A program made the position numbers and the translations under genes. A stretch of DNA of 64,000 nt from Sphingomonas ginsengisoli An et al. 2013. GTDB lineage: Bacteria > Pseudomonadota > Alphaproteobacteria > Sphingomonadales > Sphingomonadaceae. Location: assembly GCF_009363895.1 (NCBI RefSeq), contig NZ_CP045434.1, positions 1,860,001 to 1,924,000 on the forward strand, in the 5' to 3' direction. This document shows positions 35,151-56,506 of the stretch, piece after piece. The notes beneath the pieces were generated by a model. It worked only from the letters and a program-made list of their open reading frames with translations. It did not search any database and was not told the origin of the DNA. Position 1 is the stretch's first letter; every line of letters begins with the position of its first letter.

Positions 35151-35531
35151 TTACTTCATTTTGGCTTCAAGCTCCCGGAGCGAGCGCTGATTCTCGTCGG
35201 CCGTTTTCCGAGCTTCACGAAGTACCTGCTGGTTCTTCGAGTGGCGCATGATGATACGCGACATGTCGATGGCACCCTGGTGATGCGCCGCCATGCTCTT
35301 CATCCAGGCACGACCAGGATCGGGGTCCATCATGCCTTGCATCATGTTCTTGTTCATTCGGTCCATGGAAGCCATCATCTCGTGCTGTGCCGGTCCCATG
35401 TTCTGCATGCCTGACATGTGCGTGCCTTGCATGTGGGACATACTGTGGTTGGACTGGCCCTGAGCCATAGTTGGAGTCAGCGCGCCAAAAGAAAGCGCCA
35501 AGGCCGCCTGAAGAGTCTTATTAAGCACCAT
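35151..35531 (-). CDS. DUF305 periplasmic protein
   Basis: A 126-residue protein. The ATG at 35,531, preceded by GGAGACTT, gives a signal peptide ending near PTMAQG; an upstream longer frame is spurious. The mature part begins with a Met/His-rich stretch (NHSMSHMQGTHMSGMQNM). The DUF305 region has AWMKSMAAHHQGAIDMSRI. Such ferritin-like helical proteins occur in copper clusters and may bind Cu in the periplasm. Confidence 0.85.
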   Translation of the reverse strand: MVLNKTLQAALALSFGALTPTMAQGQSNHSMSHMQGTHMSGMQNMGPAQHEMMASMDRMNKNMMQGMMDPDPGRAWMKSMAAHHQGAIDMSRIIMRHSKNQQVLREARKTADENQRSLRELEAKMK

Positions 35532-35952
35532 AAGTCTCCTGTGAAACGAGACATTAACGATATGGCGAGCCGAATGTTCACGAGGATCGAGGATATGGTG
35601 GGCATCTGCGAACATCTCCGCGGGCAGCTTTGCTCGTACTCTCTTACTCCGGCTAGCCAGCTTCCTCGTATTGCGGGGCTGTCCCAAGACGGACACCCGC
35701 TTCGGTCATCGCACGATCGTCTACTTTGAGGCTGGATAAGAGCTACGGGGCCTTCGGCGCATCAGAGGTGTTCGCACCGCAACAAAGGAACAGAGTGGTA
35801 TGGTCTCTTCCGCCTGCATCCTTCCGGTGGGATCAGCTCCGCAAGGCGTGCGCTGATCGCGCGCTCAGTGGGTGCAGCCCTGGGGAGGTTGCTAGTAGGT
35901 GGAGGCGGGCGAAAGCGACAACGCAGAACCGCATCCAAAGGCCTCTGCGCCG
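35532..35952. other. Intergenic region, no recognised feature
   Basis: No credible gene, RNA or repeat is visible. It separates the DUF305 gene from the DsbA-like gene upstream of it on the same strand. It may be remnant DNA, but I found no alignable protein fragment. Confidence 0.4.
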
Positions 35953-38133: not shown

Positions 38134-38649
38134 TCAGGACGCGGCCGGCTTCCGAGCTGAGCTGTGCATCATGATAATCCGCCATCGCCCGTGCATCTTC
38201 CGCAAAGCGCTCGTGGCTACGCCCAGCCGCTCCGCTACGTCACCCTTTTTGGTTTCGATCCGGTACTTGTAGGTCTCAACTACAAGCGCGACCGGACCCT
38301 CAAAGCGCACCGCGATCTTGTAATCGCTGAACTTAAAAGACTTAAACTCTGCCAGCTCGGGCGTGAGATGGTGAGCAAGGTAGGTGGCGTAATTTCCCTC
38401 CGCTCCGCCACTTTCAAAGATTACCGAGTCGTCAGCGAAAAGCTTATCTGTTCCGTGAGGGTCGAGGCGTTCGACGGCACTATCATAACTCGCCAGGACC
38501 GAGCGAATGGCGGCCTCGTCGCGGGCGCCGGGCGGGAGCGGTGCAGCGATGGCACTACTTCCGGCCATCACGAGCAACGCAGCCAGCCAAAGCGATTTAG
38601 GGGCGCCGCCTCCCACTCCGCACTTCGATTTGGATGAGCTTAGAACCAT
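38134..38649 (-). CDS. NTF2-like (SnoaL/DUF4440-type) exported protein
   Basis: A 171-residue protein. A signal-like helix (SLWLAALLVMAGSSAIAA) precedes a cone-like NTF2 fold: AAIRSVLASYDSAVERLD, then LFADDSVIFESGG and WRIIMMHSS at the end. Its ATG lies inside the copB stop region (10-nt overlap), so it is translated with copB. The function in copper resistance is unknown; related small NTF2-like proteins bind diverse ligands. Confidence 0.75.
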   Translation of the reverse strand: MVLSSSKSKCGVGGGAPKSLWLAALLVMAGSSAIAAPLPPGARDEAAIRSVLASYDSAVERLDPHGTDKLFADDSVIFESGGAEGNYATYLAHHLTPELAEFKSFKFSDYKIAVRFEGPVALVVETYKYRIETKKGDVAERLGVATSALRKMHGRWRIIMMHSSARKPAAS

Positions 38650-39962
38650 GTGCGGATCCCCGTGACGACGCTCCAGCCCCCACGACGCTCACCAGCCTCG
38701 CGGAGGTATCGCCCGGTGGCGCCAAACGACCGCTTATACTGCACACCGACATACGGCGCGAATTCTCGGCGAATATCATAGCGCAGGCGCAATCCCGCTT
38801 CCGCGTCCGACAATCCCGAACCTATGCCAATCGAGCGGCTACTTTGGGCTGCGGCATTCACTTCGACCCGAGGCTGAAGGATTAGCCGTTGGGTAATCCG
38901 CTGGTCGTAGCTTCCCTCGACCCGGCCCATCAGTTCGCCCTTGTTCGACAGAAACAACGCAGCCTCGATATCGAAGAAGCTGGGCGCCAGTCCCTCGATT
39001 CCGATCGTTGCATAAGTACGGGACGGGTTGGGCTTGAAGTCATACCTCACCCCGCCCTGCAGATTGAAATATGGCCCAATGGCACGGCTGTAGAGAGCCT
39101 GAACTTCAGCGCGGTCGACGCCGCGCCGGAACTCACCATCGCCTTCGCTTTTGATCCATATGCGGTTGATGTCGCCACCGTACCAAGCCTGGCCGACCCA
39201 CTCATAGCCGTCGCGGCCGCGATTGAACTGATACTCCGCCAGGTTGACGATCACCTGCGACATGTTCTGACCACCGTGGAACGTCTGAAGGTGATGGCGC
39301 CCCATCGCCATCGCCTCCGTTCCATAAACCTGGTCCGCCGCATGGGTCGTCGGCACTGGCGGCGGCGGCGCAGTGCCGGCCGGAAGGTTCGTTCCACTTG
39401 CATCGCCATCGGACGGCATCGGCATGTTGCTCATTGCCTGTCCGGGCGCCGACATTCCCGGCATGTTCGCCATGTCCTGGCCAGAAGGGGTACCCATCCC
39501 CGGCATGTTCTGCATGTTGTTGCCAGCGGGTGCCCCCATCCCGGGCATATCTTTCATGTCATGACCGGAAGGTGCCGCCATGCCGGGCATGCCCTTCATG
39601 TCATGGCCAGCGGGCGCCGCCATCCCAGGCATGTCCTTCATGTCATGGCCTGGGGGCATGGTCATGCCCGGCATGGATGACATGTCGTGACCGGCAGGCC
39701 TTCGCATCCCAGGCATTGACGACATCGCGCCGCCCTTACGCTTGGCAGCTGGCGCTCGGGCAGGTTGCTTGGGCCGTTTCTTGCTCGCCCGAGCAGGAGA
39801 CTGTTTACTCGTGCTTTTCTTGGTCGCCAGCTTCTTTGTGCCGGGCATCTTCATTCCTGGCATGTTCATGCCTGGCATATTCATGTTCATTTGCGCGGAG
39901 GCAGCTGAAGCCGACGTAACGACCGCCGTCGCCATCAGCAGCGCAAGCTTACGATGCTGCAT
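38640..39962 (-). CDS. copB: CopB outer membrane copper resistance protein
   Basis: A 440-residue protein with a signal peptide (LMATAVVTSASAASAQ). A long Met-rich region of about residues 25-170 has many MPGM units. The C-terminal about 240 residues form the CopB/PcoB beta-barrel (FHGGQNMSQVIVNLAEYQF, SRAIGPYFNLQGGVRYD, ending TGIRTWF). It overlaps copA by 14 nt and belongs to the same operon. It probably binds copper at the outer membrane and sequesters it with CopA. Confidence 0.92.
   Translation of the reverse strand: MQHRKLALLMATAVVTSASAASAQMNMNMPGMNMPGMKMPGTKKLATKKSTSKQSPARASKKRPKQPARAPAAKRKGGAMSSMPGMRRPAGHDMSSMPGMTMPPGHDMKDMPGMAAPAGHDMKGMPGMAAPSGHDMKDMPGMGAPAGNNMQNMPGMGTPSGQDMANMPGMSAPGQAMSNMPMPSDGDASGTNLPAGTAPPPPVPTTHAADQVYGTEAMAMGRHHLQTFHGGQNMSQVIVNLAEYQFNRGRDGYEWVGQAWYGGDINRIWIKSEGDGEFRRGVDRAEVQALYSRAIGPYFNLQGGVRYDFKPNPSRTYATIGIEGLAPSFFDIEAALFLSNKGELMGRVEGSYDQRITQRLILQPRVEVNAAAQSSRSIGIGSGLSDAEAGLRLRYDIRREFAPYVGVQYKRSFGATGRYLREAGERRGGWSVVTGIRTWF
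39420..39900 (-). repeat. Met-rich tandem repeats in CopB
   Basis: The coding DNA carries about ten imperfect copies of a unit encoding MPGM-x(2)-P-x-G-x-DM. They are most regular at 39,460-39,700. Repeat units differ by a few bases, so copy number may vary between strains. They form the likely Cu(I)-binding arm of CopB. Confidence 0.75.
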
Positions 39963-42036
39963 TGTCGTTCCCCTCCGACGGACGGACCGTCACAACTCGC
40001 ATCATTCCCGCGGTCATGTGGAACAGGTTATGGCAGTGAAACGCCCAGTCGCCGGGCGCATCCGCGGTAAGATCGAAACTCATCTTTCCTCCAGGAGGCA
40101 CGTTCACCGTGTGCTTGCGCGGCGCGTTCGATCCATGCCCCGTCACGAGCTCAAAGAAGTGACCGTGGAGGTGGATCGGGTGCGGCATCATCGTGTCATT
40201 GATCAACGTCACGCGCACTCGCTCGCCGAGCCGGAACGGGATCGGTTCGGCTGGGTCGCTTAGCTTCACGCCATCGAACGACCACATGTAACGTTCCATG
40301 TTTCCGGTCAGATGGATGTCGAGCGACCGCGAGGGTGCGCGAACATCCTTGTTGCGGTCGAGCGACACGAGGTCACGATAGACGAGCACGCGATGATCTA
40401 GCCCCTCAAGACCCTGAGGCGCTTCGCCGCTCCGATCCATCGGCATCGGTGAAATCGTCTGCACGCCTGGTCCCATCTTAACCTGGGGAGCATTGCGGCC
40501 ATCGCGCATGTTCATGCTCATTGCACCGCTCTGCGACCCAGAAGACGCGGCGGCGCCATGATCCATCCCCGCCATCGAAGAAGAGCTGCCAGCGGCAGCT
40601 CCGCTGGCAGCTGCAGGACCCATGCCGGACATTCCCGCCATCGACCCACCGGACATCCCGGACATCGATCCACCGGCCATCCCAGGCATGGACGCCATTC
40701 CAGGCGTTGCTGCAGCGGAAGACGCTCCCATCCCGGCCATTCCTGCCACAGCGGCGGAGGCCGCACTGGCTGCCATCGAACCATGGTCGGTCGGCTCGCG
40801 CCATCCGGTTAGCTTGGCTAAGTTGCGTGAGGCGTTCTGCTCTGCCGACGGATCGATACCTCTCAGCATGGCTGGGTTCTTACCGCTCATGTCCATGCCC
40901 GACATGCCCTGCATGTCACTCATGTCCATGCCCATGTCCTTCATTGTCGTAAGCGGACGTGGGCGTAGCGGAGGAACAGGCGCAATCATTCCTGCCCGCG
41001 GCGCCAAGGTCGCGCGACCCTGTCCAGAGCGGTCAATGGACTCGCTGACGAAGCTGTAGGCGCGATCACCCGGCGTCACGATGACATCGAAAGTCTCGGC
41101 CACGCCGATCTGGAATTCATCGACGGTTACCGGGCGGACATTCTGCCCGTCCGCCTGAACCACCGTCATCGGCAAGTCGGGGATTCGGACGTTGAAGTTG
41201 GTTTGCGCAGCGGCATTGATGATCCGAAGCCGGACGCGTTGACCAGGCGTGAAGAGACCGGTCCAGTTGTCATAGGGACCATAGCCATTGACGGTGAAGG
41301 TATAGGTCGAGCCGGTGACGTCGGCGATGTCGGCGGGATCCATGCGCATCTTTGCCCATTGCCGGCGCTCGCTAAGCGGCATGTCCCTGCCAGCCAGGAG
41401 GCCGGAAAGTGTAAGGCGCTGCATGTTGAAATAGCCGCCGCCCATTTGCTTCAACTTCCGGAAAATGGTTGCTCCGCCCATTGGACTGTGGTCGGCGAGT
41501 ACGATGACGTGCTCACGATCGTAAGCAATGGGGTCTGGCCCAGCTGGATCGATGACGATCGGCCCGTACAGTCCGTCCTGTTCCTGATACGACGAGTGAC
41601 TGTGGTACCAGTAGGTTCCAGACTGCATGACCGGGAAGGCATAGTCGAAGGTTGTCCCAGGGCGGATGCCGGGGAAGCTCACGCCTGGCACGCCGTCCAT
41701 AGGAAAGGGGACGAGAAGGCCATGCCAGTGGATGGAGCTGTCCTCCGGCAATGAGTTTGTGACTTTCAGGCGAACCTGTTGGCCTTCTTTGAGCCGGATG
41801 AGCGGTCCCGGAACGGTCCCGTTGATCCCGATCGCCTTGCTCAACCTGCCGTCGACACGCACCGCGACGTTGCCAATCGAGAGAGCAATGTCTGTTCCAC
41901 TGACGGTCGGCAGAGGCCTAACCAGGCCGGGCGAAAGCGGCTTGGCCCAGCTCGGCATTGATGATGCAAGGACCATGGTGCCACCAGCAGCAGCGGCTCC
42001 GCGCATAAGCTGGCGGCGGTCAAGAAGGCGCGACAT
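39949..42036 (-). CDS. copA: CopA-type periplasmic multicopper oxidase
   Basis: A 695-residue protein. The ATG at 42,036 (GGGAG upstream) gives a Tat signal with DRRQLMRGAAAAGG. Copper motifs are complete: IHWHG, HSHSSYQEQDG, HPIHLHGHFFEL and HCHNLFHMTAGMM. A Met-rich insertion (about residues 360-520, MGMDMSDMQGMSGMDMSG and Ser/Gly/Met runs) precedes the last cupredoxin domain. It oxidises Cu(I) to less toxic Cu(II) in the periplasm. The promoter at 42,077-42,105 fits the ECF consensus and overlaps the end of the sigma gene. Confidence 0.94.
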   Translation of the reverse strand: MSRLLDRRQLMRGAAAAGGTMVLASSMPSWAKPLSPGLVRPLPTVSGTDIALSIGNVAVRVDGRLSKAIGINGTVPGPLIRLKEGQQVRLKVTNSLPEDSSIHWHGLLVPFPMDGVPGVSFPGIRPGTTFDYAFPVMQSGTYWYHSHSSYQEQDGLYGPIVIDPAGPDPIAYDREHVIVLADHSPMGGATIFRKLKQMGGGYFNMQRLTLSGLLAGRDMPLSERRQWAKMRMDPADIADVTGSTYTFTVNGYGPYDNWTGLFTPGQRVRLRIINAAAQTNFNVRIPDLPMTVVQADGQNVRPVTVDEFQIGVAETFDVIVTPGDRAYSFVSESIDRSGQGRATLAPRAGMIAPVPPLRPRPLTTMKDMGMDMSDMQGMSGMDMSGKNPAMLRGIDPSAEQNASRNLAKLTGWREPTDHGSMAASAASAAVAGMAGMGASSAAATPGMASMPGMAGGSMSGMSGGSMAGMSGMGPAAASGAAAGSSSSMAGMDHGAAASSGSQSGAMSMNMRDGRNAPQVKMGPGVQTISPMPMDRSGEAPQGLEGLDHRVLVYRDLVSLDRNKDVRAPSRSLDIHLTGNMERYMWSFDGVKLSDPAEPIPFRLGERVRVTLINDTMMPHPIHLHGHFFELVTGHGSNAPRKHTVNVPPGGKMSFDLTADAPGDWAFHCHNLFHMTAGMMRVVTVRPSEGNDNAAS

Positions 42037-42076: not shown

Positions 42077-42105
42077 GTTACGCAGCGCCACGTAGAAACC
42101 CTTAG
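42077..42105 (-). promoter_or_regulatory. ECF-type promoter of copAB
   Basis: On the minus strand CTAAGGG, a 15-nt spacer, then GCGTAAC. It is the weakest match of six shared promoters in the island and lies about 40 bp before the copA start, overlapping the last codon of the sigma gene. Confidence 0.65.
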
Positions 42106-42671
42106 GTTCGCCCCAATTTCTCGAACAAACGAGCGCGAGCACGATAGAGTCGGGTCTCGACGGCCTTCTGACTAATGCCAAGGACTTCGGCTGTTTCAGC
42201 CTGGCTCATCCCTTCGATCGTTCGAAGAACGAGGGGCTCCTTCAAATTGGTTGGGAGGGATGAGATGGCGCGCCTCACCCGATCTAATTCCTGGCGATCG
42301 GCAACAGCGTCGTCGAGCGCGACTTGGCCATCGGCTACGGATTCGGCTTCGCTGCCCATCGGAAGGGCGAAAGAAAGCATGCGGCGGACGGCGCGGCGTC
42401 GCGCCCAGTCGCGACACTTATTGATGGCGATGGCGGACAACCACGCCTTCATCGAACGAGCGCCATCGAACCGCGAAAGCGCCTGGTGAGCAGAAACGAA
42501 TGTCTCCTGCACAAGATCGAGGGCTTCATCGGGATCCCCAACCCATGCCCGCGCAAGACGAAAAACCGGCTGGCGATAGCGGCGCATGATCTCAGCAAAT
42601 GCAGCTTGCCGACCTGCGATACTAAGGTCGGCTAGCTCGCTATCGCCAAGCGACGTGTAGTCGAGGCTCAC
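42102..42671 (-). CDS. ECF sigma factor (CnrH-like)
   Basis: A 189-residue sigma-70 family protein. Region 2 has FRLARAWVGDPDEALDLVQE. Region 4 has LPTNLKEPLVLRTIEGMSQ followed by EVLGISQKAVETRLYRARA. Only regions 2 and 4 are present, as in ECF factors. Its first codons overlap the CnrX-like gene by 4 nt. The Y-X-H order and sequence features match cnrYXH, where metal sensing at the periplasmic X frees H from Y. Candidate target promoters are described at 42,077, 43,406, 43,444, 45,260, 46,228 and 47,656. Confidence 0.88.
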   Translation of the reverse strand: MSLDYTSLGDSELADLSIAGRQAAFAEIMRRYRQPVFRLARAWVGDPDEALDLVQETFVSAHQALSRFDGARSMKAWLSAIAINKCRDWARRRAVRRMLSFALPMGSEAESVADGQVALDDAVADRQELDRVRRAISSLPTNLKEPLVLRTIEGMSQAETAEVLGISQKAVETRLYRARARLFEKLGRT

Positions 42672-43108
42672 TGCTGATTGTCGGTGAGTGCCTTCACCAC
42701 CGCCTGGTCGTAGGCGGCGGTCTGATTGGGGCGCAAGATTTGCCGCATGGCAAAGATGTGTGCGAGCGTCCCCTTCTGGAGTTCACCCATCACGGCATGA
42801 CTGCGATCAACAGCGGCAATCACTCGTGGACCGTTGCCATGTTCCTGCTCGATTGCATCCGCCAGCCGCGCGTTATCGGCCCTCAACTCCAACTCGAGCG
42901 CCTTTCGCTGCACTGCGAAGCGTTGCTCAAGAAGCTGGAGCTGCGCCTGCTGGTTCTGGTCAAGCGCGAGCCTGTGATGCAGCACTTCGTGGAGCTCGGC
43001 GCCCGGCTGCGTTGGCTTGGGAAGGATCGCCCTTCCAGCAAAGACACCGCCTACCGCCGCGAGGAAGCAGGCTAGGACGGGCATGAGAAGACGGAAGCGT
43101 CGGCTCAC
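42668..43108 (-). CDS. Periplasmic metal sensor (CnrX-like)
   Basis: A 146-residue protein with one N-terminal helix (LLMPVLACFLAAVGGVFAG) and a helical periplasmic domain of the heavy-metal sensor type. Possible ligands match CnrX: HEVLH (an HxxxH pair near residue 40), LLEQRF (Glu near 61) and AHIFAM (His and Met four apart, near 118-122). It is coupled by 4-nt overlaps at both ends. It would sense metal and release the anti-sigma protein. Confidence 0.8.
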   Translation of the reverse strand: MSRRFRLLMPVLACFLAAVGGVFAGRAILPKPTQPGAELHEVLHHRLALDQNQQAQLQLLEQRFAVQRKALELELRADNARLADAIEQEHGNGPRVIAAVDRSHAVMGELQKGTLAHIFAMRQILRPNQTAAYDQAVVKALTDNQQ

Positions 43109-43386
43109 GGCTCACCGATCAACAGTGTTGAAGGCGCCAATGGCTGGGCGGGTCCCAACGGTGCGAGGGACGCTGCCGCAGTTGAAGGCAGCGGTACCCC
43201 TGCACCCATCACTCCGATCAGGGCCGCCACGACAAATACGGCTGGTCCGATCCGAAGGCCGACGCGTGCCGCCGATCCCGCTGCAATGCGCGCGAGCACA
43301 TTCGCTTCTATTGCGTCTAAACCCAAAGGTATCGGCACCTGCCCAAGTCTCTCCAGCGTCCGATCGAGGTCGTCCAATCTTCTCAC
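43105..43386 (-). CDS. Membrane anti-sigma factor (CnrY-like)
   Basis: A 93-residue protein with one central membrane helix (IGPAVFVVAALIGVMGAG). The short cytoplasmic N-terminus (RRLDDLDRTLERLGQVPIP) would hold the sigma factor and the periplasmic tail would contact the sensor. I prefer the GTG at 43,386 with AGGG upstream; a longer ATG frame (43,437) would extend across the -10 box of its own promoter. The assignment rests on position and topology, since such proteins are short and divergent. Confidence 0.7.
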   Translation of the reverse strand: MRRLDDLDRTLERLGQVPIPLGLDAIEANVLARIAAGSAARVGLRIGPAVFVVAALIGVMGAGVPLPSTAAASLAPLGPAQPLAPSTLLIGEP

Positions 43387-43405
43387 TCCACCCTCACTAG
43401 CATAG

Positions 43406-43434
43406 ATTACGCACGATGGGCCGCCAGCCCTCAC
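43406..43434 (-). promoter_or_regulatory. ECF-type promoter of the anti-sigma/sensor/sigma operon
   Basis: On the minus strand GTGAGGG (43,434-43,428), 15 nt, GCGTAAT (43,412-43,406), about 20 bp before the GTG at 43,386. It is the autoregulated promoter of the sigma operon. Together with the copC promoter it forms a divergent pair whose -35 boxes make a perfect 7-bp dyad. Confidence 0.75.
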
Positions 43435-43443
43435 CAAGTTCGT

Positions 43444-43472
43444 GTGAGGGATTGGCCATCGGCTTGCGTAAT
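43444..43472 (+). promoter_or_regulatory. ECF-type promoter of copCD
   Basis: GTGAGGG (43,444-43,450), a 15-nt spacer, GCGTAAT (43,466-43,472), 34 bp before the copC ATG. The two boxes are identical to those of the divergent anti-sigma promoter. Confidence 0.75.
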
Positions 43473-43506
43473 GACGGGCAGGGACCCTCTTACGGAAGAA
43501 CCAAAC

Positions 43507-43875
43507 ATGAAGCGCTTACCTTTAGTCATTGCTGCCGCGGCCGTCGCTATGCTTTCGAGCGCGGCAAACGCCCACCCGAAGCTTCTCTCTGCGACGCCGG
43601 CGGCCAACTCGTCAGTCGTGAGACCATCGCACATTGACCTGCGCTTCAGTGAGAAGCTGATGCCGGCGTTTTCCAAGGCTGACCTCGTGATGGCGGCGAT
43701 GCCCGGAATGGCGGCGATGAACATCGCCAGCACGGCCGTCGTTGCTCCTGACGGTCGCAGCCTCGTCATCACCCCGAAAGCACCGCTGCACTCCGGCCGT
43801 TACAATGTGGTCTGGCATGTCGTCTCGACCGATACTCACAAGGTAGCGGGAAATTTTGTTTTTGCGGTGAAGTAG
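43507..43875 (+). CDS. copC: CopC periplasmic copper-binding protein
   Basis: A 122-residue protein. The signal peptide (LPLVIAAAAVAMLSSAANA) is cleaved to leave an N-terminal His (HPKLLSATPA), the Cu(II) ligand of CopC. The domain ends with VWHVVSTDTHKVAGNFVFAV, and a Met-bearing loop (VMAAMPGMAAMN) could bind Cu(I). It is the first gene of a two-gene unit with copD. Confidence 0.9.
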   Translation: MKRLPLVIAAAAVAMLSSAANAHPKLLSATPAANSSVVRPSHIDLRFSEKLMPAFSKADLVMAAMPGMAAMNIASTAVVAPDGRSLVITPKAPLHSGRYNVVWHVVSTDTHKVAGNFVFAVK

Positions 43876-43879
43876 AACA

Positions 43880-44806
43880 ATGGCGGATTGGTCGCTGATT
43901 GCAGTTCGTTTGGCACTCTATGTCGTGCTGTCTGCGATGTTCGGCTTGGCCGCCTTCAGCCTATATGGACTGACCATGCGTGAGCGCGGCGACGCGCTCA
44001 CGCTACGCCCGTGGTTAATCGCAAGCGCTTGCCTAGGCCTCATCCTGTCGATCGCGTGGTTGATACTAATGGCCACATCGATGGCAGGCACATCGCTGTG
44101 GCCGATCGACCAGGAGGCTCTGGGCGCACTGCTGACGGGCTCGGCCATCGGAACGGCGTGGAAGGTGCGGATGGTCGCGCTCGTTGTTGCAACTGCTTGC
44201 GCGGGTGCGAGCCCTAATCGCACCTTACCCCTGATCCTGGTTACGGCGTCGGGCGCTGTCGGCCTTGGGAGTCTGGCTTGGACCGGGCATGGCGCGATGG
44301 ACGAGGGCTCCATCGGCTGGGCTCACCTTGTTGCCGACATCTTCCACCTGCTCGCTTCGGGCACTTGGGTCGGAGCCCTAGTCGGACTGCTCTTGCTGGT
44401 CTCACGTCCCGTAGTCCGGGTAGACGCCTCGCACCTTCGTTTGACCCATCGCGCGCTTCACGGGTTCGGCAGCATCGGAACCATCGTCGTAGGAACGATC
44501 GTCATCTCCGGCCTCGTCAATGGTTGGGTGCTCGTCGGATTAGGTAACATAACGACCCTAACGTCCAACCTTTATGGTCAGCTTTTTGTTCTGAAGCTCG
44601 TGCTGTTCGCGGCCATCCTTGGCTTGGCTTCGCTGAACCGTTTCCGTCTGACGCCGGCCTTCGAACAGTCGATCGCAGCCGAGAATCACCGCGGAGCACT
44701 CGGTGCACTGCGCACAAGCTTGCTCGTGGAAACCGGCTGCGTCGTTGGCATACTCGGGCTGGTGGCCTGGTTAGGAACCCTGTCTCCCTCGGCTTCGGCA
44801 ATGTGA
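43880..44806 (+). CDS. copD: CopD inner membrane copper protein
   Basis: A 308-residue membrane protein with about eight helices. It starts 4 nt after the copC stop. CopD landmarks include GHGAMDEGSIGWAHLVADIFHLLASGTW with conserved His and Trp, and LYGQLFVLKLVLFAAILGLASLNRFRLTP near the end. CopC and CopD are thought to pass copper across the inner membrane or to cytochrome assembly. Confidence 0.9.
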   Translation: MADWSLIAVRLALYVVLSAMFGLAAFSLYGLTMRERGDALTLRPWLIASACLGLILSIAWLILMATSMAGTSLWPIDQEALGALLTGSAIGTAWKVRMVALVVATACAGASPNRTLPLILVTASGAVGLGSLAWTGHGAMDEGSIGWAHLVADIFHLLASGTWVGALVGLLLLVSRPVVRVDASHLRLTHRALHGFGSIGTIVVGTIVISGLVNGWVLVGLGNITTLTSNLYGQLFVLKLVLFAAILGLASLNRFRLTPAFEQSIAAENHRGALGALRTSLLVETGCVVGILGLVAWLGTLSPSASAM

Positions 44807-44857
44807 GGCGCATGAATTCCTGACGCCTGAATCGCCGATCGCCGGGCGCATTAGCGA

Positions 44858-44885
44858 GGTGCGGGCAGTTGTAGGTGCCCGCACC
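44858..44885. terminator. Hairpin between convergent copD and csp genes
   Basis: GGTGCGGGCA (44,858-44,867) and TGCCCGCACC (44,876-44,885) form a perfect 10-bp stem with an 8-nt loop, in the gap between convergent genes. No T tract follows in either direction, so termination is likely but not certain. Confidence 0.55.
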
Positions 44886-44891
44886 GTCTTC

Positions 44892-45224
44892 TCAAGCGGC
44901 CATTTTCTCGCATTCCTTGGCGCAGCGGTTACAAGCGGCGGCACACTCTTCCATCCCATCGAGCGCCTCACAGCTCGTCGCGCACGCCCGGCAAATCTCA
45001 GCGCACTCGCGGCAGATATGCTGATGGTGCTCGGACCCGCGCGCCATGAAGTCGATCGTGACTGCGCAAATCTGGGCGCAATCCATCATGATCTTCATAT
45101 GCTGCGGCTGGGCGTGACGTCCGCCCGCTTCTAGGCAGTGATTCATCGCCATGTTGAGGCAGGTCACATGGCAATCATGGCAGGCGTCCATGCAAGCCTT
45201 CATTGCGGGGTCCATCTGATGCAT
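44892..45224 (-). CDS. Cys-rich four-helix copper storage protein (Csp/DUF326)
   Basis: A 110-residue protein with 16 Cys arranged in CxxxC and CxxC steps along predicted helices (CMDACHDCHVTC, CAQIC, CRECAEICRACATSC, CNRCAKEC). This is the pattern of Csp copper-storage bundles, which line the core with Cu(I)-thiolate sites. No signal peptide is seen, so it is probably cytosolic like Csp3. The ATG at 45,224 has GGAGAAC upstream; an earlier ATG at 45,257 would sit almost on the transcription start. Confidence 0.85.
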   Translation of the reverse strand: MHQMDPAMKACMDACHDCHVTCLNMAMNHCLEAGGRHAQPQHMKIMMDCAQICAVTIDFMARGSEHHQHICRECAEICRACATSCEALDGMEECAAACNRCAKECEKMAA

Positions 45225-45259
45225 CGGTCGTTCTCCGTGTGAAACCCCGCCCATCATCA

Positions 45260-45289
45260 GCTACGCGCCGGCGCGCGCCATCCCTTTCC
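45260..45289 (-). promoter_or_regulatory. ECF-type promoter of the Csp gene
   Basis: On the minus strand GGAAAGGG, a 15-nt spacer, then GCGTAGC, ending about 36 bp before the ATG at 45,224. Confidence 0.65.
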
Positions 45290-45316
45290 GAAATTACTGG
45301 CCGGCTCCTCGCCTGG

Positions 45317-46204
45317 CTACATCGTCCATCGGCCGAATAGCGTGGCAATCACATTTCCGCCCGCGAGCATCATGAGGGTTAAAACCGTCATCGCAGCAAT
45401 CTGAGCGTTGGTCACGCCCGCGTTCAATGCCATGCCTTCCGTGTTCTCCGCCATGTCGTGGGTCATCCCAGGCATCGCCGGCGGTGGCCGCTCGGCCGAG
45501 ACATCGTGCCCACCTTGGCCAAGCGCGCGCTCCGTTCCCATCCCATGCTTCAATCGGACACCGACAAGCCATAAGTTGATCGGATAGGCCGTAGCGAAGC
45601 CGACCAGAGTGGCCAGCGACATCACGCCCCAAAACCGGAGCGAGCTGGCGTGCATCGCTGCCATGTCCCTGCTCATCAACAGCACCATCGTTGGGATCAT
45701 GCCGGCCATCACGGCGTTCATGGAAAGCCATTCGGGAACGAAGGACATTCGAAGCGCCCGGATGTAGGAGCCCCCCGCCATGTCGCGCATGAACAGGGCT
45801 TGGAAGATGAACAGGCCGAAGCCAAACCCGAAGACATATTCGGCCGTGACATCTAACCACATCGGCAATCCGAGCGCCGTGGTGATTGCCGCTGCGACAA
45901 TGACCCCGGTCGCGTCACCAGCCATGCAATGAATGGACGACCCGAATGCCTGCTTCCAAAGTGGGCGGATGAAGTCCTCGTGGCGCTGGTTTGGCGGTTC
46001 CTGACAGGACAGGACATAAGCGGCAGCCATGATGGGCCCGCCGTAAAGGGTCACCAGCAGCCAGCCCCATTTCATCACCTTCATTTCGGGATTGCGGGTG
46101 AACGCGTCCCAAGCGACGTAGCCGACCGATAGAGCGGTCAACACAAACCACCCGATCAAAAGCGGATCAAGCCACGAATCCGGCGAAGGCATCGTCATCG
46201 TCAT
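45317..46204 (-). CDS. DUF4396 membrane protein
   Basis: A 295-residue protein with about seven helices. The family core is SIHCMAGDATGVIVAAAI and EYVFGFGFGLFIFQALFMRD, followed by WLSMNAVMAGMIPTM. A loop near residue 215 is His/Met-bearing (PPAMPGMTHDMAENTEGMA). DUF4396 members cluster with copper genes but have no proven function. An ECF-type promoter 24-52 bp upstream places it in the copper regulon. Confidence 0.8.
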   Translation of the reverse strand: MTMTMPSPDSWLDPLLIGWFVLTALSVGYVAWDAFTRNPEMKVMKWGWLLVTLYGGPIMAAAYVLSCQEPPNQRHEDFIRPLWKQAFGSSIHCMAGDATGVIVAAAITTALGLPMWLDVTAEYVFGFGFGLFIFQALFMRDMAGGSYIRALRMSFVPEWLSMNAVMAGMIPTMVLLMSRDMAAMHASSLRFWGVMSLATLVGFATAYPINLWLVGVRLKHGMGTERALGQGGHDVSAERPPPAMPGMTHDMAENTEGMALNAGVTNAQIAAMTVLTLMMLAGGNVIATLFGRWTM

Positions 46205-46227
46205 CGTTACGCACCCCTTTGAAGAAG

Positions 46228-46256
46228 GATACGCGGGGTTCGGCCTGAGCCCTCGC
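46228..46256 (-). promoter_or_regulatory. ECF-type promoter of the DUF4396 gene
   Basis: On the minus strand GCGAGGG, a 15-nt spacer, then GCGTATC, 24 bp before the ATG at 46,204. It belongs to the six-promoter set. Confidence 0.7.
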
Positions 46257-46266
46257 CAACGGCGAC

Positions 46267-47580
46267 CTAGGTTAGCTTGCTCGCAATGGCTTTGATCGCC
46301 TTCAACCCCGATCCGAAACGAGCAATGGCTTCGCGGTTCTTTTCCAATTCGCTGTACGGCAGATAGGCGATGTTGAGGTCAGCGATTCGACTGAATGCCG
46401 GTCGCCGCAGCTGAGCGCGAACATCGCTCTCGCGCGCGTCGGGCGCGACAAGGAACATGCCGGCTGCAGCATGAATCTCGCCGCCACTAAGTGCCAGATC
46501 GAGCATCCGCACGATCCCTGAGTAGATGGAGGTCGAATGCTCCACTTCGAAAGCGGCGGTCACATGCTCGCCGCCCTTCTCCAACCAGAGCACGTCGATC
46601 AGACGGATTGAATCTGCGCCGCTCGAAGTCGCGATCGAGTCCGGGAGCCGTTCTAGACAGCCGTGCCCAAGCGCCAAGTCATTCAAGAGTCGGCTTCGGT
46701 CGTTGGAAGCGATCCAAACATCATAGCCGAGTGCCAGGCCAAGATCACGCAACCAGCCCTGAAGCTCGGTGTGGGTACGCTCGTTCTCGCCGTCCTGCTT
46801 TGCGGCTTTGCTGAGCGTGCGTGCTTCCTCGCGGGCGGTTTCCAGTCGCGAGGCCCAATCGTTGAGCGCCCTGCAGTCCGGCTCCAGGGGCGGGGCTGGA
46901 TAGCGGCCTGACCCGATGTCGAACATCAAACCGCCGATCGCGCCCAGGTCGTTTGACAGAAGATCACGATATCGGTCGTTGAGGTCGAGGATCCCGGTTC
47001 GCATGGCAAGAAAGTGTTCCCAGCTTCCCAGCTTCACCTTCGCGCCAGTGAGTGCATTGTATCCGTTCACGATTGCAGTGTTGAAAGGCGGCACCAGGGT
47101 TGGGTGAAGAAAGTAGAGCAGGTTAGCGACCGCCGGCCCCAGCCCCTTGATCTTTAAGCGGTCGATGGTGTGAATATGGCTAATAATCTCCTCCGCCGTG
47201 TCGCAGCAGGAGCAGGCATCGAGCAGCCGGCCGAAAGCCCGTTGATTATCCGGGCTTTCGTAAATGTCAGGAATTCGGAGCTTGGGTTTCCACAAGAAGG
47301 CGTGGTCGGCACCTTTAAAGATCTGGCGTTGCTCGGCGACCGAGTGGACAACGGTTTCTAAAGACGATCCGCGGTACGCGACCCCGAAGGCACCTCGCTC
47401 GATTTCGCCAACGACTTGACTGATGCCTCGCCGGATAGAGCGGAAGTTCTTTAGCCGCTCATCCCACAAGAACCAGCTTCGATAGGTTGCCCCCGGATCG
47501 TCGCGCCAGTTCGCGATTAGCCGACGAATAAAGAATTCGTGATCACCGCTTGGCTTTGGCTGTTCAAGTTGCGCAGCCAT
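46267..47580 (-). CDS. HhH-like/PD-(D/E)XK-like nuclease, putative
   Basis: A 437-residue soluble protein. About residues 145-180 contain LKIKGLGPAVANLLYFLHP, a helix-hairpin-helix with a GxGP turn as in DNA glycosylases. The C-terminal third has IDVLWLEKGGE and then TAAFEVEHSTSIYSGIVRM, resembling the catalytic strand of some restriction-endonuclease-like proteins (D...ExE). GGGAGGCC precedes the ATG. It lies among copper genes but has no metal motif. It is probably a defence or repair enzyme passenger; no methyltransferase is adjacent. Confidence 0.6.
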   Translation of the reverse strand: MAAQLEQPKPSGDHEFFIRRLIANWRDDPGATYRSWFLWDERLKNFRSIRRGISQVVGEIERGAFGVAYRGSSLETVVHSVAEQRQIFKGADHAFLWKPKLRIPDIYESPDNQRAFGRLLDACSCCDTAEEIISHIHTIDRLKIKGLGPAVANLLYFLHPTLVPPFNTAIVNGYNALTGAKVKLGSWEHFLAMRTGILDLNDRYRDLLSNDLGAIGGLMFDIGSGRYPAPPLEPDCRALNDWASRLETAREEARTLSKAAKQDGENERTHTELQGWLRDLGLALGYDVWIASNDRSRLLNDLALGHGCLERLPDSIATSSGADSIRLIDVLWLEKGGEHVTAAFEVEHSTSIYSGIVRMLDLALSGGEIHAAAGMFLVAPDARESDVRAQLRRPAFSRIADLNIAYLPYSELEKNREAIARFGSGLKAIKAIASKLT

Positions 47581-47655
47581 CCCGGCCTCCCCTCCCCGAG
47601 TGCAAGCCTTTGGCTCTAGCGAGCCCCGTCGGGGCCGTCGACTTTACTCATGCGT

Positions 47656-47684
47656 TCGAGGGAAAAGAGGCCCTCGTGCGTAGC
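47656..47684 (+). promoter_or_regulatory. ECF-type promoter of the Cu P-type ATPase gene
   Basis: TCGAGGG (47,656-47,662), a 15-nt spacer, GCGTAGC (47,678-47,684), 55 bp before the ATG at 47,740. It rules out an ATG at 47,650 as the start. Confidence 0.7.
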
Positions 47685-47739: not shown

Positions 47740-50343
47740 ATGAACGACGGGCATCCCCAGTCTCCGCCAGAAGGCCATGGCTGCTGCGAGGGCTCCGTCC
47801 CGCAGCCGCGGGACGCCGAACGCCAGCCGGCTGAGGTAGGGTGCTGCTCACGGAATAGTGCGTCAGCTGGCGTGCAAGCCGTCACGGACCCCGTGTGCGG
47901 GATGAAGGCCGATCCGGCAACTAGTGCGCACCATGCCGAACACGCCGGTCATAGCTTTCATTTTTGCAGTGCGGGGTGCCGAGCCAAGTTTGTCTCCGAC
48001 CCCGAGGCGTATCTCCGTGATGATGGGCAAATCGATCAGGCACAGGGTGCGGCTATGAAAACGGTCACTGACGCCGTGTGCGGCATGACCGTTGATCCGG
48101 AAGCGACGCCGCACCATTCAGAGCACGCTGGGCAAGCTTATCACTTTTGCAGCGCCGGGTGCCGGACCAAGTTCGTCGCCCAGCCTGACGCGTATCTGGG
48201 TGGACAGCCGCGCCCGGAACCGAAAGCGACGCCGGGCGCGATGTGGACGTGTCCGATGCATCCCGAGATTCGCCAGGAAGGGCCCGGGACCTGCCCGATC
48301 TGCGGCATGGCGCTCGAACCCGAAGAGCCGTCGCTCGACGATGCGCCCAACCCCGAGCTGGTCGACTTCACCCGTCGGTTCTGGATTGCCACAGCGCTAA
48401 CCATCCCGCTGCTCGCCGTATCCATGTTTGCCGAACTGCTTGGCTACGAACTGGTCAGTTCCGCTGCCTCGCCGTGGGTTCAACTCGCGCTCGCCGGGCC
48501 AGTGGTGCTGTGGGCCGGTGCGCCGTTCTTCGTGCGAGGATGGCGATCAATCGTCACGCGGCATCTGAATATGTTCACGCTGATTTCGATCGGGGTTGGT
48601 GCTGCGTTCCTATACAGCTTGTTCGCAACGGTAGCTCCTGGGACCTTTCCTTCGACGTTCCGGATGGGCGCAGTCGTTCCGGTTTATTACGAGGCCGCAG
48701 CCGTCGTCGTGACGCTGGTGCTGCTCGGGCAGGTGCTCGAATTGCGCGCTAGGGCGGCGACTGGTCGTGCGATCCGAGCGCTGATGGATCTCGCGCCCAA
48801 GCTTGCGCGTCGGCTGCGGGCTGACGGGTGGGAGGAGGAAGTCAGCCTTGCCGAAGTGGCGGCCGGCGATCGGCTGCGAGTGCGTCCCGGCGAGGCGGTG
48901 CCGGTCGATGGAGTGGTGGTCGACGGCCGCAGTTCGGTCGATGAGTCCATGTTGACCGGTGAGCCCGTTCCAGTGCTCAAAGAATTGGGCGCGGAGGTCA
49001 CGGGCGGAACAGTCAACGGCACGGGAAGCCTTGTCATGGAAGCCCGGGCGGTCGGCTCGAATACGATGCTCGCACGGATCGTCCGGATGGTCGCCGAAGC
49101 GCAGCGCAGCCGCGCACCTATCCAAGCGGTCGCAGATAGAGTCTCCGGCTGGTTCGTGCCGCTGGTGGTGCTGATCTCGGTTGCAACATTTGTGGTCTGG
49201 TCAGTGTTCGGTCCTGAGCCCCGCATGGGCCACGCTCTCCTGAACGCGATCGCAGTGCTGGTAATCGCCTGCCCTTGCGCGCTCGGGCTCGCCACGCCCA
49301 TGTCTATCATGGTCGGCACCGGCCGTGGAGCGCATGCCGGTGTGCTGGTCAAGAATGCGGAAGCCCTGCAGGCTTTTGAGAAGGTCGATACGTTGGTCAT
49401 CGACAAGACGGGCACGCTAACCGAAGGCAAGCCTAAGCTGCTGGACATCGAGGCCTTGGGCGGCATCGAGCAAGACGAGTTGCTTGCACTTGCCGCCGCC
49501 GTTGAAGGCCAGTCCGAGCATCCGCTCGCTCATGCGATTGTCACGGCTGCCAAGGACAAGGGCCTGGTGATCGGCCGGGTCGAGGAGTTCGCCTCCCACA
49601 CCGGCCTCGGCGTCAGCGCCAAGGTAGCCGGCCAGGAAGTCGTAATTGGCAATGCGGCCCAGATGAAAAGGGTCGGGATTGATCCTTCCTTCATCCACAG
49701 CGCGGCTGATCGTCACCGGCGCGATGGCGCTGGCGTCATGCTGGTCGCGGTCGACGGTAAGCTGGCAGGACTGCTGGCGGTCGCCGATCCGGTGCGATCC
49801 ACGGCGGCGGAGGCTATCGCGACGCTCCGACGCGAGGGCCTGAGTGTCATCATGCTCACCGGGGACAATGAAGCTACGGCCGATGCAGTCGCGCGCGCGG
49901 TGGGCGGCCTAGACGATGTGCGCGCGGACTTGCGGCCCGAAGACAAAGCTCGGATCATCGCTGAGCTGAAGGCGAGCGGCGCTCGCGTGGCGATGGCCGG
50001 GGACGGAATCAACGACGCCCCGGCCCTGGCGATTGCGGATGTCGGCTTGGCGATGGGAACGGGGACCGATGTCGCGATTGAAAGCGCCGGCATAACCCTC
50101 ACGCGTGGCGACCTCTCCGCAATCGTCCGCGCCCGCCGACTTGCTCAAGCTACTATGCGGAACATTCGTCAAAACCTGCTCTTCTCGTTCTTGTTCAACG
50201 GAATCGGCGTGCCCGTGGCGGCGGGTGTGCTTTACCCAGTTGCAGGCATCCTGCTCTCCCCCATGCTCGCTGGCGCGGCCATGGCGCTGTCTTCTTTCAC
50301 AGTTGTGCTGAACGCCCTGCGATTGAATAGCGTCAGATTGTGA
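47740..50343 (+). CDS. Cu(I)-translocating P1B-type ATPase with two YHS domains
   Basis: An 867-residue pump. The N-terminus carries two YHS-type metal domains (DPVCGM...HFCSAGC and DAVCGM...HFCSAGC) and a [22 protein letters not shown] heavy-metal-binding segment. Pump motifs are complete: [20 protein letters not shown] (the CPC site of Cu/Ag ATPases), [20 protein letters not shown] and GDGINDAPA. The ATG at 47,740 has GGGAG upstream. It exports cytoplasmic Cu(I) to the periplasm, feeding CopA and CusCBA. Confidence 0.93.
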
Positions 50344-50877: not shown

Positions 50878-52140
50878 ATGCTTTTCAGTCTAACTGACGT
50901 ACCGTCGGTGCGCTTTCGCGGCGTCCTGGCATTGGCCGCCATCCTCCTGTCGGGCGCAGCTCAAGGGCGACCGATGACGTTCGACGATGCGCTTAGACAG
51001 GCGCGCGGCGACGCGCCCTCGCTTCGGGCCAGATCGCTCGAGATTGATGCGGCGCGTCTACGACGCGACGCTACCGGGCGCCTGCCCGATCCAAAGTTGC
51101 GACTAGAAGAGGATAGTTTTCCGATCTCGGGGCCGTTGGCATTCAAACCCTCACGCGACGACTTCAACTGGTTCAGTGTCGGCGTCTCGCAGGACATTTT
51201 GAACGCCGCCAAGCGCCACGCCCAGCAGCAGCGAGCCGGAGCCGAGATCACGGTCGCAACGGCTCAAGCGACGGCCGAGACGCGCACTGTGGAGGTCCAA
51301 ACCGCGCTTGCGTGGATTACCGTCGCTTTCGCCCAGAAAAGGGTCGCCGCGCTCGACTCGGTTAGGCGGCGGCTCGACCGGCTGGTCGGCACGACGCCGA
51401 GCGCGGTCGCGGCGGGCAACGCGCGACCAGCGCAGGTGTTGGCGGGGCGCCAGGCACTCGCCGCGCTCGATGATCGCCGGGATGAGCTAATCTCGGCTTT
51501 GGCGAAGGCTCGTGCTGTCCTTACACGGTGGACCGGCGATCCCGATCCGGCGATCGCCGGGCCCGTACCGAACTTCGAGGTCGATGCCGCGCGCCTTGAG
51601 GCCGCGCTGGACGGAAATCCCGCACTGGCGACTGTCGCCGCCAAGGTCACTCAGTCGCTAGCGGAGGTCCGGGTCGCGGAAGCGGAGCGGCGCCCGGACT
51701 TCAGCGTCGATGTCAGCTATCAGCGCCGCGACCCACGCTTTGGCGACTATGTCTCGGCCGGGGTAACGATCGGCCTTCCGCTTTTCCAGAAGCACCGTCA
51801 GGCGCCCCTCATCGCCGCGCGTCAGGCCGATGCCGCACGGGTGCTCGCCGAGCAGGAGGCCGCGCGGCGCGCGCTCCGCGCCGAGCTCGACGCCGGACTG
51901 GCCGAACACGCCGCTCACCACGCCCGGCTGGAGCGTGCCCTCCGGACCATCGAGCCACTCGCCCGCGAGCGGGTCGACCTGGAGACGGCCAGCTATTCAG
52001 CTGGACGGGCCGGGCTGATCGACATTGTCGATGCCCACAGCGCGCTGGCCAACGCGATGCTCGACACGCTCGACCGAGAGGCCGACGTCGCTCTCGAAGC
52101 AGCGCGGATCAATCTCACCTATCGGAGCGCGGCACGATGA
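50878..52140 (+). CDS. cusC: CusC-type outer membrane factor
   Basis: A 420-residue TolC-family protein with a signal peptide (VLALAAILLSGAAQG). Typical landmarks are FDDALRQARGDAPSLRA near the N-terminus, GRLPDPKLRLEEDSFPISG and AGRAGLIDIVDAHSALANA. It overlaps the adaptor gene by 4 nt (ATGA). It forms the exit channel for the Cu/Ag RND pump. Confidence 0.9.
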   Translation: MLFSLTDVPSVRFRGVLALAAILLSGAAQGRPMTFDDALRQARGDAPSLRARSLEIDAARLRRDATGRLPDPKLRLEEDSFPISGPLAFKPSRDDFNWFSVGVSQDILNAAKRHAQQQRAGAEITVATAQATAETRTVEVQTALAWITVAFAQKRVAALDSVRRRLDRLVGTTPSAVAAGNARPAQVLAGRQALAALDDRRDELISALAKARAVLTRWTGDPDPAIAGPVPNFEVDAARLEAALDGNPALATVAAKVTQSLAEVRVAEAERRPDFSVDVSYQRRDPRFGDYVSAGVTIGLPLFQKHRQAPLIAARQADAARVLAEQEAARRALRAELDAGLAEHAAHHARLERALRTIEPLARERVDLETASYSAGRAGLIDIVDAHSALANAMLDTLDREADVALEAARINLTYRSAAR

Positions 52141-53363
52141 CCTCAGTCTTCCGCACACCCCCGGGCCGCGCCGCGATCCTCGCAGTGGTCGCCAGCGGTG
52201 CGATCGGCTTCGGCATCGCTCGCTGGACCGCACCTGCTGCTCAAACGGAGACCGGTGCCTCTGCTTCCGAAAGCAAGAAGAAGGTCCTCTATTACTACGA
52301 TCCGATGGTGCCGCGGGAGCACTATAGCAGTGCAGATGCACTCTCATCCATGGGGATGAAGGCGTTCAAACCCAGATATGCGGACGAAACCGACGCAGTC
52401 GCCGGGCCGCCATCGGTAACGGTCGATCCGGGCGCTCAACAGAATCTCGGGATCAGGGTCGCGACCGCGACGACCGGCACGCTTGCTGGCGCGCTCGACG
52501 TCACTGGCACGGTCGACTTCAACCAGCGCGATGTTGCTATAGTGCAGGCGCGATCTACGGGCTTCGTCGAGCGGGTCTATCGCCGGGCGCCGGGCGACGT
52601 GATCCCAGCCGGCGCACCGATCGCCGATCTGCTGGTGCCCGAGTGGGGCGGCGCGGAAACCGAGTACAGCGCCGTGCGCCGCACCGGCGATCGCGCCCTG
52701 ATCGCCGCAGCAGGCCAGCGGTTACGGCTGCTCGGGGTTTCAGCCGGCCAGACGGGGCGGCGCGGAGTGGTAACCGTCCGAAGCCCGATCAGCGGTGTGA
52801 TTCAGACGCTCGATGCTCGAGCCGGGGTGACGCTCGCGCAAGGCCAGACGCTCGCCCAGATCAACGGACTTGGCACCGTGTGGCTCAACGCGGCGATCCC
52901 GGAGGCACAGGCTGGTCAGGTACGTGTCGGTCAGTCAGTTACCGCCGATTTGACCGCCTTTCCAGGTGAGCCTTCCGGGGGGCGCATCGTTGCGGTTCTG
53001 CCGACAGCCTCGACTGAGAGCCGGACGCTCACCGTCAGGGTCGAGTTGCCAAATCACGGCACGCGGCTGCGGCCGGGCATGTTCGCGACCGTCCACCTCA
53101 CGAACGAGGCGCGGTCGGCCCTGCTCGTGCCGAGTGAAGCGGTCATCCGCACGGGCAAGCGAACCCTTGTGATGCTTGCTGAACGGAAGGGCCATTATCG
53201 CCCGGCGGAGGTGCGCGTCGGCCGGGATGTCGGCGGTCAGACAGAAGTCCTCGCCGGGCTTAGCCCGGGTGAGAAAGTGGTCGCGTCGGGTCAGTTCCTG
53301 CTCGACTCCGAGGCAAGCCTTAGCGGTATTCCGGCGCGGCCAATCGGGGGCGGCACCAAGTGA
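52137..53363 (+). CDS. cusB: CusB-type periplasmic adaptor with metal-binding segment
   Basis: A 408-residue HlyD-family protein. After a membrane anchor ([17 protein letters not shown]) comes [17 protein letters not shown], the YHS/heavy-metal-binding-like segment typical of CusB-type proteins. The barrel-sandwich ([20 protein letters not shown]), lipoyl and beta-barrel parts follow, ending with [18 protein letters not shown]. Overlaps of 4 nt on both sides fix its place in cusCBA. Confidence 0.9.
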
Positions 53364-56300: not shown

Positions 56301-56506
56301 TGACCGTCGCAGTCATTCTCGCGGGTCTTTTTCCGCTCTTGATCGGGACGGGAACCGGGTCGGAAGTAATGAGCCGTATCGCCGCCCCGATGATCGGCGG
56401 CATGTTGACGGCACCCCTGCTGTCCATGCTCGTCATCCCCGCTGGCTATCTCTTGCTAAGACGACGCGAGGGGAAGCGATCGCAACGGATCCAACCTCCT
56501 CTCTAG
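53360..56506 (+). CDS. cusA: CusA-type Cu/Ag RND pump
   Basis: A 1,048-residue RND pump. It begins with a GTG overlapping the cusB stop by 4 nt. The helix 4 motif [19 protein letters not shown] is that of Cu/Ag HME pumps, unlike the czcA here. Met residues in EMFETTIRF and [13 protein letters not shown] match those lining the Cu(I) path in E. coli Cus[24 protein letters not shown] lies in a late helix. It expels periplasmic Cu(I) or Ag(I). Confidence 0.94.

Follow-up and report, generated by a model that had tools for sequence, protein, structure and literature searches.

A CnrYXH-type sigma switch very likely wired to copper resistance through six promoters in Sphingomonas ginsengisoli

We analyzed a stretch of 64,000 nucleotides from Sphingomonas ginsengisoli (NCBI RefSeq assembly GCF_009363895.1, contig NZ_CP045434.1, positions 1,860,001 to 1,924,000; hereafter the window, with coordinates counted from its first letter), which holds a copper-resistance island with an extracytoplasmic function (ECF) sigma factor gene among the resistance genes. 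This island is very likely a sigma switch of the CnrYXH type, named for the nickel/cobalt system of Cupriavidus metallidurans, which has been wired to copper resistance such that one sigma factor reads six promoters. The six promoters have one rigid architecture, are clustered in 5.6 kb and are conserved together with the sigma gene, and the sigma factor and its neighboring sensor are kin of CnrH and CnrX. The original prediction, made on the window from its letters alone, held that the one ECF sigma recognizes all six, including the promoter of its own operon. Comparison supports this: relatives with as little as 37% identity over the matched sigma segment still have the motif beside these genes, and it follows copA past inserted genes. 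To judge from the neighboring genes, copper is probably the inducer.

The rigid arrangement that had been described, AGGG followed by GCGTA after 15 nt, was found at every one of the six promoters with the gap exact, all within the 5.6 kb. The positions first given for them hold for five sites; that of csp needs a small correction, to 45288-45260 from 45289-45260. The two divergent promoters, of the anti-sigma operon and of copC, indeed share identical boxes (GTGAGGG and GCGTAAT). All six had been placed 20-60 bp before gene starts, and with promoter-compatible start codons the distances from CGTA to the start agree with this: 30 nt for cnrY (TTG 43377), 36 for copC (ATG 43507), 42 for copA (ATG 42036), 37 for csp (ATG 45224), 25 for the DUF4396 gene (ATG 46204) and 57 for the ATPase gene (ATG 47740). 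The longest listed open reading frames (ORFs) of cnrY, copC and the ATPase start upstream of the promoter, and that of csp starts 4 nt past it. In the following list coordinates run from AGGG to CGTA, scores come from a weight matrix built on 118 anchor promoters from relatives with the window excluded, and counts refer to 42 non-redundant loci of relatives, which are described below.

43408..43431, minus strand: promoter of the anti-sigma/sensor/sigma operon (predicted autoregulation); GTGAGGG and GCGTAAT; score 24.8; orthologous site in 42 of 42
43447..43470, plus strand: copC-copD promoter, divergent from the preceding one; score 24.8; site in 40 of 42
42079..42102, minus strand: copA-copB promoter; score 21.9; motif before a copA homologue in 41 of 42
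45262..45285, minus strand: promoter of the DUF326 Csp-like gene; score 17.7; motif before a Csp homologue in 11 of 42
46230..46253, minus strand: promoter of the DUF4396 membrane protein gene; score 14.7; motif before a DUF4396 homologue in 5 of 42 by the ORF rule given below, and in 7 loci on reading the loci themselves
47659..47682, plus strand: promoter of the copper-type P1B ATPase gene; score 19.1; motif before an ATPase homologue in 16 of 42

At the copA promoter, the -35 box overlaps the sigma stop codon TAA by the final base of the codon, an arrangement shared by 18 of the 42 relatives. When spacers of 10 to 21 nt between AGGG and GCGTA were tried across the window, 15 gave seven pairs, 20 gave one and the others none. 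The seventh pair (35278-35255, minus strand) lies within a DUF305 ORF (35151-35696) and was rejected as a further promoter; we take it as background because its matrix score is 8.4, as against 14.7-24.8 for the six.

In the whole genome of 3,037,290 bases, AGGG-N15-GCGTA occurs at 11 sites, six in the 5.6 kb and five elsewhere, as opposed to 24 sites for the same pattern read backwards, and the looser AGGG-N16-CGTA occurs at 19, again with six in the 5.6 kb, as opposed to 59 for its reversed control. Since both controls exceed the motif, it is neither frequent nor rare as such, and the signal lies in the clustering. The rate outside the island predicts 0.009 AGGG-N15-GCGTA sites in 5.6 kb where six are observed (Poisson P of about 1e-15, in a post hoc test on a region that had been chosen by eye). 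The number of sites is by itself uninformative: a count of the pattern across 61 genomes of the genus gave 0-13 in each.

The weight matrix, which owes nothing to the window, places the six sites at ranks 1-6 of the 64 kb (24.8, 24.8, 21.9, 19.1, 17.7 and 14.7), the next score being 10.4, and above all 13 other exact AGGG-N16-CGTA matches of the genome. For the 12 such matches beyond the window, scores range between -8.8 and 12.9; the best of them, at genome position 159593, might be a weak extra member of the regulon, the genome-wide search for further members having covered exact AGGG/CGTA matches. At L087 (genome 331220-333243), a CopB-like ORF has an antisense AGGG-N16-CGTA near its start, which scores -2.0 and is taken as chance.

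Further evidence comes from relatives. We took the best 80 of 315 loci confirmed by a contig scan with sigma alignment, together with three plasmid loci, and merged these 83 at 95% identity into 42 non-redundant loci (517 kb), all picked only for encoding the sigma. In them AGGG-N16-CGTA occurs 209 times, and no other spacing in the range 8-25 exceeds 24 occurrences. It lies upstream of the anti-sigma gene in all 42, on the divergent copC side in 40, and 500-720 nt past the sigma start in 36; in five of the other six it stands before copA beyond an insertion, and the remaining locus, L068, yielded no copA. The motif thus remains before copA where genes have come in between it and the sigma gene. 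The search pattern leaves the base before CGTA free, yet 97-100% of the sites at the three anchor promoters have G there, and a T stands two bases ahead of AGGG in 69-85%. When each site was assigned to the longest ORF within 200 nt, 174 of the 209 fell before families of the window (copA 41, copC 37, DUF305 29, cnrY 21, ATPase 16, Csp 11, DUF4396 5, and, in the same operon as cnrY, cnrX 13 and sigma 1) and 35 were left without an assignment. The count for cnrY is too low, as this rule took cnrX or the sigma where cnrY comes first. All six promoters recur in the gene order of the window in five loci (L039, L043, L057, L058 and L063), with the provisos that the L058 stretch has no ATPase match and that L057 and L063 have other sequence between sigma and copA. 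In every relative checked for it, on plasmids as on chromosomes, the motif accompanies the sigma gene. Fourteen loci (L043-L054, L071 and L077), from many differently named Sphingomonas records and one filed as Arthrobacter, form one 95%-identity cluster over the sigma region, which suggests the recent spread of a single copper island.

We also found a published relative of these promoters, where the initial statement was that no published consensus was known for this sphingomonad group. The cnrY and cnrC promoters of pMOL28, whose starts have been mapped, carry the same boxes as AGGG-N17-CGTA. An available portion of one report puts the start sites of cnrY and cnrC 24 and 25 nt upstream of the genes (PMC9045368), and against these starts, taken in that order, CGTA spans -12 to -9 and AGGG spans -33 to -30. 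This placement fits -10 and -35 boxes. Our matrix, which has a different spacing, gives no score to the cnr promoters.

The genes served by these promoters, and those of the switch itself, are as follows.

42102..42671, minus strand: CnrH-like ECF sigma, 189 aa; Pfam Sigma70_r2 and r4_2, TIGR02937 above cut-off; best PDB match CnrH 4cxf
42668..43108, minus strand: CnrX-like periplasmic sensor, 146 aa; Pfam Metal_resist, NccX/CnrX in PDB, predicted fold matching CnrX
43105..43377, minus strand: candidate anti-sigma, a small protein at the place of CnrY that contains a hydrophobic stretch and has a TTG start; named from position and alignment with relatives
39949..42036, minus strand: copA, copper resistance multicopper oxidase; TIGR01480 at 755.6 bits (cut-off 479)
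38640..39962, minus strand: copB; PF05275 at 1e-84
43507..43875, plus strand: copC; NF033814 above cut-off
43880..44806, plus strand: copD; PF05425 at 6e-22
44892..45224, minus strand: Csp-like protein (DUF326), candidate copper store; PF03860 on the longer ORF, TIGR04401 (Csp1 family) weak and below cut-off
45317..46204, minus strand: DUF4396 membrane protein; PF14342 at 2e-36
47740..50343, plus strand: copper-type P1B ATPase with YHS domains and HMBD; Pfam, TIGR01511 above cut-off

The sigma matches CnrH (4cxf) at 9e-29 and the next solved sigma at 1e-17, and no other close homologue of it was found in the genome. It comprises regions 2 and 4 only, with the region 4 match ending at residue 182 of 189, and has no Cys-rich tail. 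CnrH itself was reportedly placed in group ECF20 by an early ECF classification. An AlphaFold model of the sensor (mean pLDDT 84.2) has CnrX chains as its top structural matches (2y3d, with a TM of 0.87 by target length). Between the DUF4396 and ATPase genes lies an ORF of 437 aa (46267-47580, minus strand) with a match to the PADLOC model REase_II for type II restriction enzymes (4e-12) and to no Pfam family; it has matches of 81-86% identity in the loci of 21 relatives. Past the copper ATPase is a Czc-like RND efflux operon (50878-56506, plus strand), before which the matrix scan lists no such promoter.

Following the precedent of CnrYXH, we posit that in the absence of metal the small protein in the CnrY position would keep the ECF sigma at the membrane. 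A periplasmic metal, probably copper, would bind the CnrX-like sensor, whereupon the complex of sensor and anti-sigma would change and free the sigma. RNA polymerase carrying it would then start at the six promoters (-35 AGGG, usually TGAGGG, and -10 GCGTA at the fixed 15-nt gap), raising the output of copAB, copCD, the Csp-like copper store, the DUF4396 protein, the copper ATPase and the sigma's own operon. Given so fixed a promoter rule, the copper regulon of these bacteria can be read from sequence, and it points to DUF305 and DUF4396 proteins as members of unknown function. In three plasmid records, the sigma is annotated merely as 'RNA polymerase sigma factor'.

Beyond the close relatives, a match to the sensor is present in 83 of the 199 sampled genomes of the family and in 58 of 96 genera. 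We examined 30 family loci (one from a genome of the same genus, nine of the best search loci, and 20 sensor matches spread over identity) and found the motif in all 30, with the sigma matched at 37-78% identity. Of these loci, 27 have a copA homologue and 29 match at least one copper gene of the window. Within the genus to which the window belongs, homologues at 51% identity or above are found in 6 of 71 genomes among the matches listed, and each of the other five genomes has two or more motif copies beside the gene; here the system is accessory and probably mobile. In some more distant family loci (L114, L117, L118, L119 and L120), TGAGGG-N16-CGTACT recurs at a distance of 1.7-2.8 kb from the two divergent promoters, on the flank opposite the sigma gene.

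As to the metal, the sensor residues H40, H44, E61, H117 and M121 correspond to H42, H46, E63, H119 and M123 of CnrX, which are the CnrX metal ligands (PDB titles name E63 and M123 mutants) and are invariant in all 115 aligned sensors, those of the window and CnrX included. The window sensor has H90, H104 and M107 in addition. With CnrX left out, H104 is present in all 114 sensors, M107 in 113 and the full set E89, H90, G93, H104 and M107 in 112; outside the family E89 and H90 are variable. The three sensors linked to cnrC (pMOL28, L142 and L151, the latter two with cnrC identities of 77% and 45%) have Glu and Ala at the 104 and 107 positions. In a sample of the phylum, 18 of 398 genomes, the window's own included, have a sensor match; of 19 sensor loci with H104 and M107, 17 have a copper gene in the sequence covered, leaving two loci that overlap each other where a contig ends. 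This count leaves out L143 and L148 (no sensor by tblastn) and L144 (a weak partial match), and L130 is the same locus as L109; L143 has the sigma, copA and three motif copies. A sigma tree of 68 rows, which covers about half of the non-redundant loci and has several long branches, groups the three cnrC-linked rows in a single branch (100/99) within the copper-linked spread under midpoint rooting. It is conceivable, though we hold it doubtful, that residues set apart from the classic site on the long helical hairpin, H104-x-x-M107 and in sphingomonads also E89-H90, mark a copper-sensing CnrX branch that built a family-wide alphaproteobacterial copper regulon with its own promoters, and that the Ni/Co CnrYXH would be a specialized offshoot rather than the ancestor. 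Sensors that share the five-ligand site but have different neighbors and differ at two residues provide a natural experiment in how the same fold might come to select copper rather than nickel.

Several observations weigh against the reading of the island as a copper-wired CnrYXH-type switch. The sensor holds the full ligand set of the Ni/Co sensor CnrX, and copper as the metal is drawn from the gene content. The anti-sigma candidate gave no Pfam, NCBIfam or significant PDB match, although the PDB includes a CnrY-CnrH complex. The AGGG-CGTA spacing was rejected as a mark of the metal, with N17 in the copper-linked L135 (one site), L139 and L147 and an N16 site in the cnrC-linked L151. One of the 30 family loci, L111, has no match to any copper gene of the window; near its sigma/sensor pair (L111:5962-11550), the second promoter is followed by PepSY-like genes and a TonB-receptor-like gene, as named by reading the sequence. 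The DUF4396 promoter is the lowest of the six, and ten simulated 64-kb windows (first-order Markov) gave two sites of at least 14, at 15.6 and 19.9, so that this site in particular leans on conservation. Lastly, a table excerpted from PMC11647585 labels the cnrY start site 'RpoD', making cnrY a less clean anchor than cnrC. 

Among the rival explanations, the one with most to commend it accepts the ECF promoters as real but has the sigma answer mainly to nickel, cobalt or zinc, with copper genes as its output. The kinship of the sensor to CnrX/NccX and the five ligands, invariant in 114 of 114 sensors, favor it; however, matches to copper genes of the window lie in 29 of the 30 family loci and copper genes in 17 of the 19 H104/M107 loci of the phylum sample, the extra His and Met positions are not in the three cnrC-linked sensors, and a PDB entry title (3epv) names a copper-bound form of CnrX itself. 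We accordingly regard this explanation as unlikely. The genome also has four weaker ECF-like homologues, all outside the window, which count against our assignment and for a different sigma as the reader of these promoters, but the motif goes with this sigma gene wherever it was checked and the autoregulatory site is in all 42 non-redundant relatives, leaving that proposal very improbable.

The divergent -35 boxes between cnrY and copC form an inverted repeat (CCCTCAC-N9-GTGAGGG), as would befit the dyad operator of a DNA-binding copper regulator rather than a sigma promoter. The gap between the facing boxes, however, can be anything between 12 and 85 nt in the 40 non-redundant relatives with the two boxes, on which ground this reading was rejected; moreover, the other four sites are single, and the GCGTA half keeps a fixed distance and is located where the cnr -10 lies. 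We hold the odds of an operator to be slim indeed. That the sites are a chance alignment picked by eye in GC-rich sequence might be argued from the genome-wide abundance of both patterns and their reversed controls, and from the seventh window match that looks like background, but the clustering, the ranking by a matrix from independent data and the conservation in relatives reduce its probability to next to nothing. The CnrYXH-type switch with six promoters read by one sigma is the reading that we prefer.

Finally, the island finds parallels in several known systems. It resembles CnrYXH of C. metallidurans pMOL28 in the gene order Y-X-H with X and H overlapping, in promoters with AGGG and CGTA boxes ahead of both Y and the first resistance gene after the sigma, in a sigma nearest to CnrH, and in a sensor of the CnrX fold with its five metal ligands. 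It differs in having six promoters of copper genes as against the one RND efflux operon of cnr; in the copA-copB pair, rather than a CnrCBA-type RND efflux operon, after the sigma; in the AGGG-CGTA distance (16 versus 17 in pMOL28, though not so in every relative); in the -10 element (GCGTA versus CCGTATA); and in H104/M107 of the sensor versus Glu/Ala in CnrX. Excerpts of two papers have CnrY wrapping or embracing CnrH (PMC8103513, PMC7406223), and a passage of another has CnrH serving only cnr (PMC7563307). NccX of the NccYXH system of C. metallidurans 31A is the best PDB sequence match of the window sensor; that system is one of nickel-cobalt-cadmium resistance, per the PDB molecule name. 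Copper-linked ECF sigmas are also described elsewhere, here as given in portions of the respective papers. CorE of Myxococcus xanthus, a copper ECF sigma, switches on genes for a multicopper oxidase and a copper ATPase, but it is controlled by its own Cys-rich C-terminal extension without an anti-sigma (PMC10141476); the window sigma has no such tail. SigF-NrsF of Caulobacter crescentus has an ECF sigma whose regulon rises under copper, but the regulon as listed there comprises other gene families, pcoAB being treated apart (PMC8224329). SigAb of Acinetobacter baumannii is an ECF sigma stimulated by copper, whose direct regulon, as reported there, is sigAb, relA and a small RNA, the metal resistance genes being indirect (PMC12153292). 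A search of the open-licence literature, with subscription journals mostly outside it, found no description of a CnrH-type sigma for copper genes. The promoter class already has a known relative in cnr, and the copper branch is the new part.

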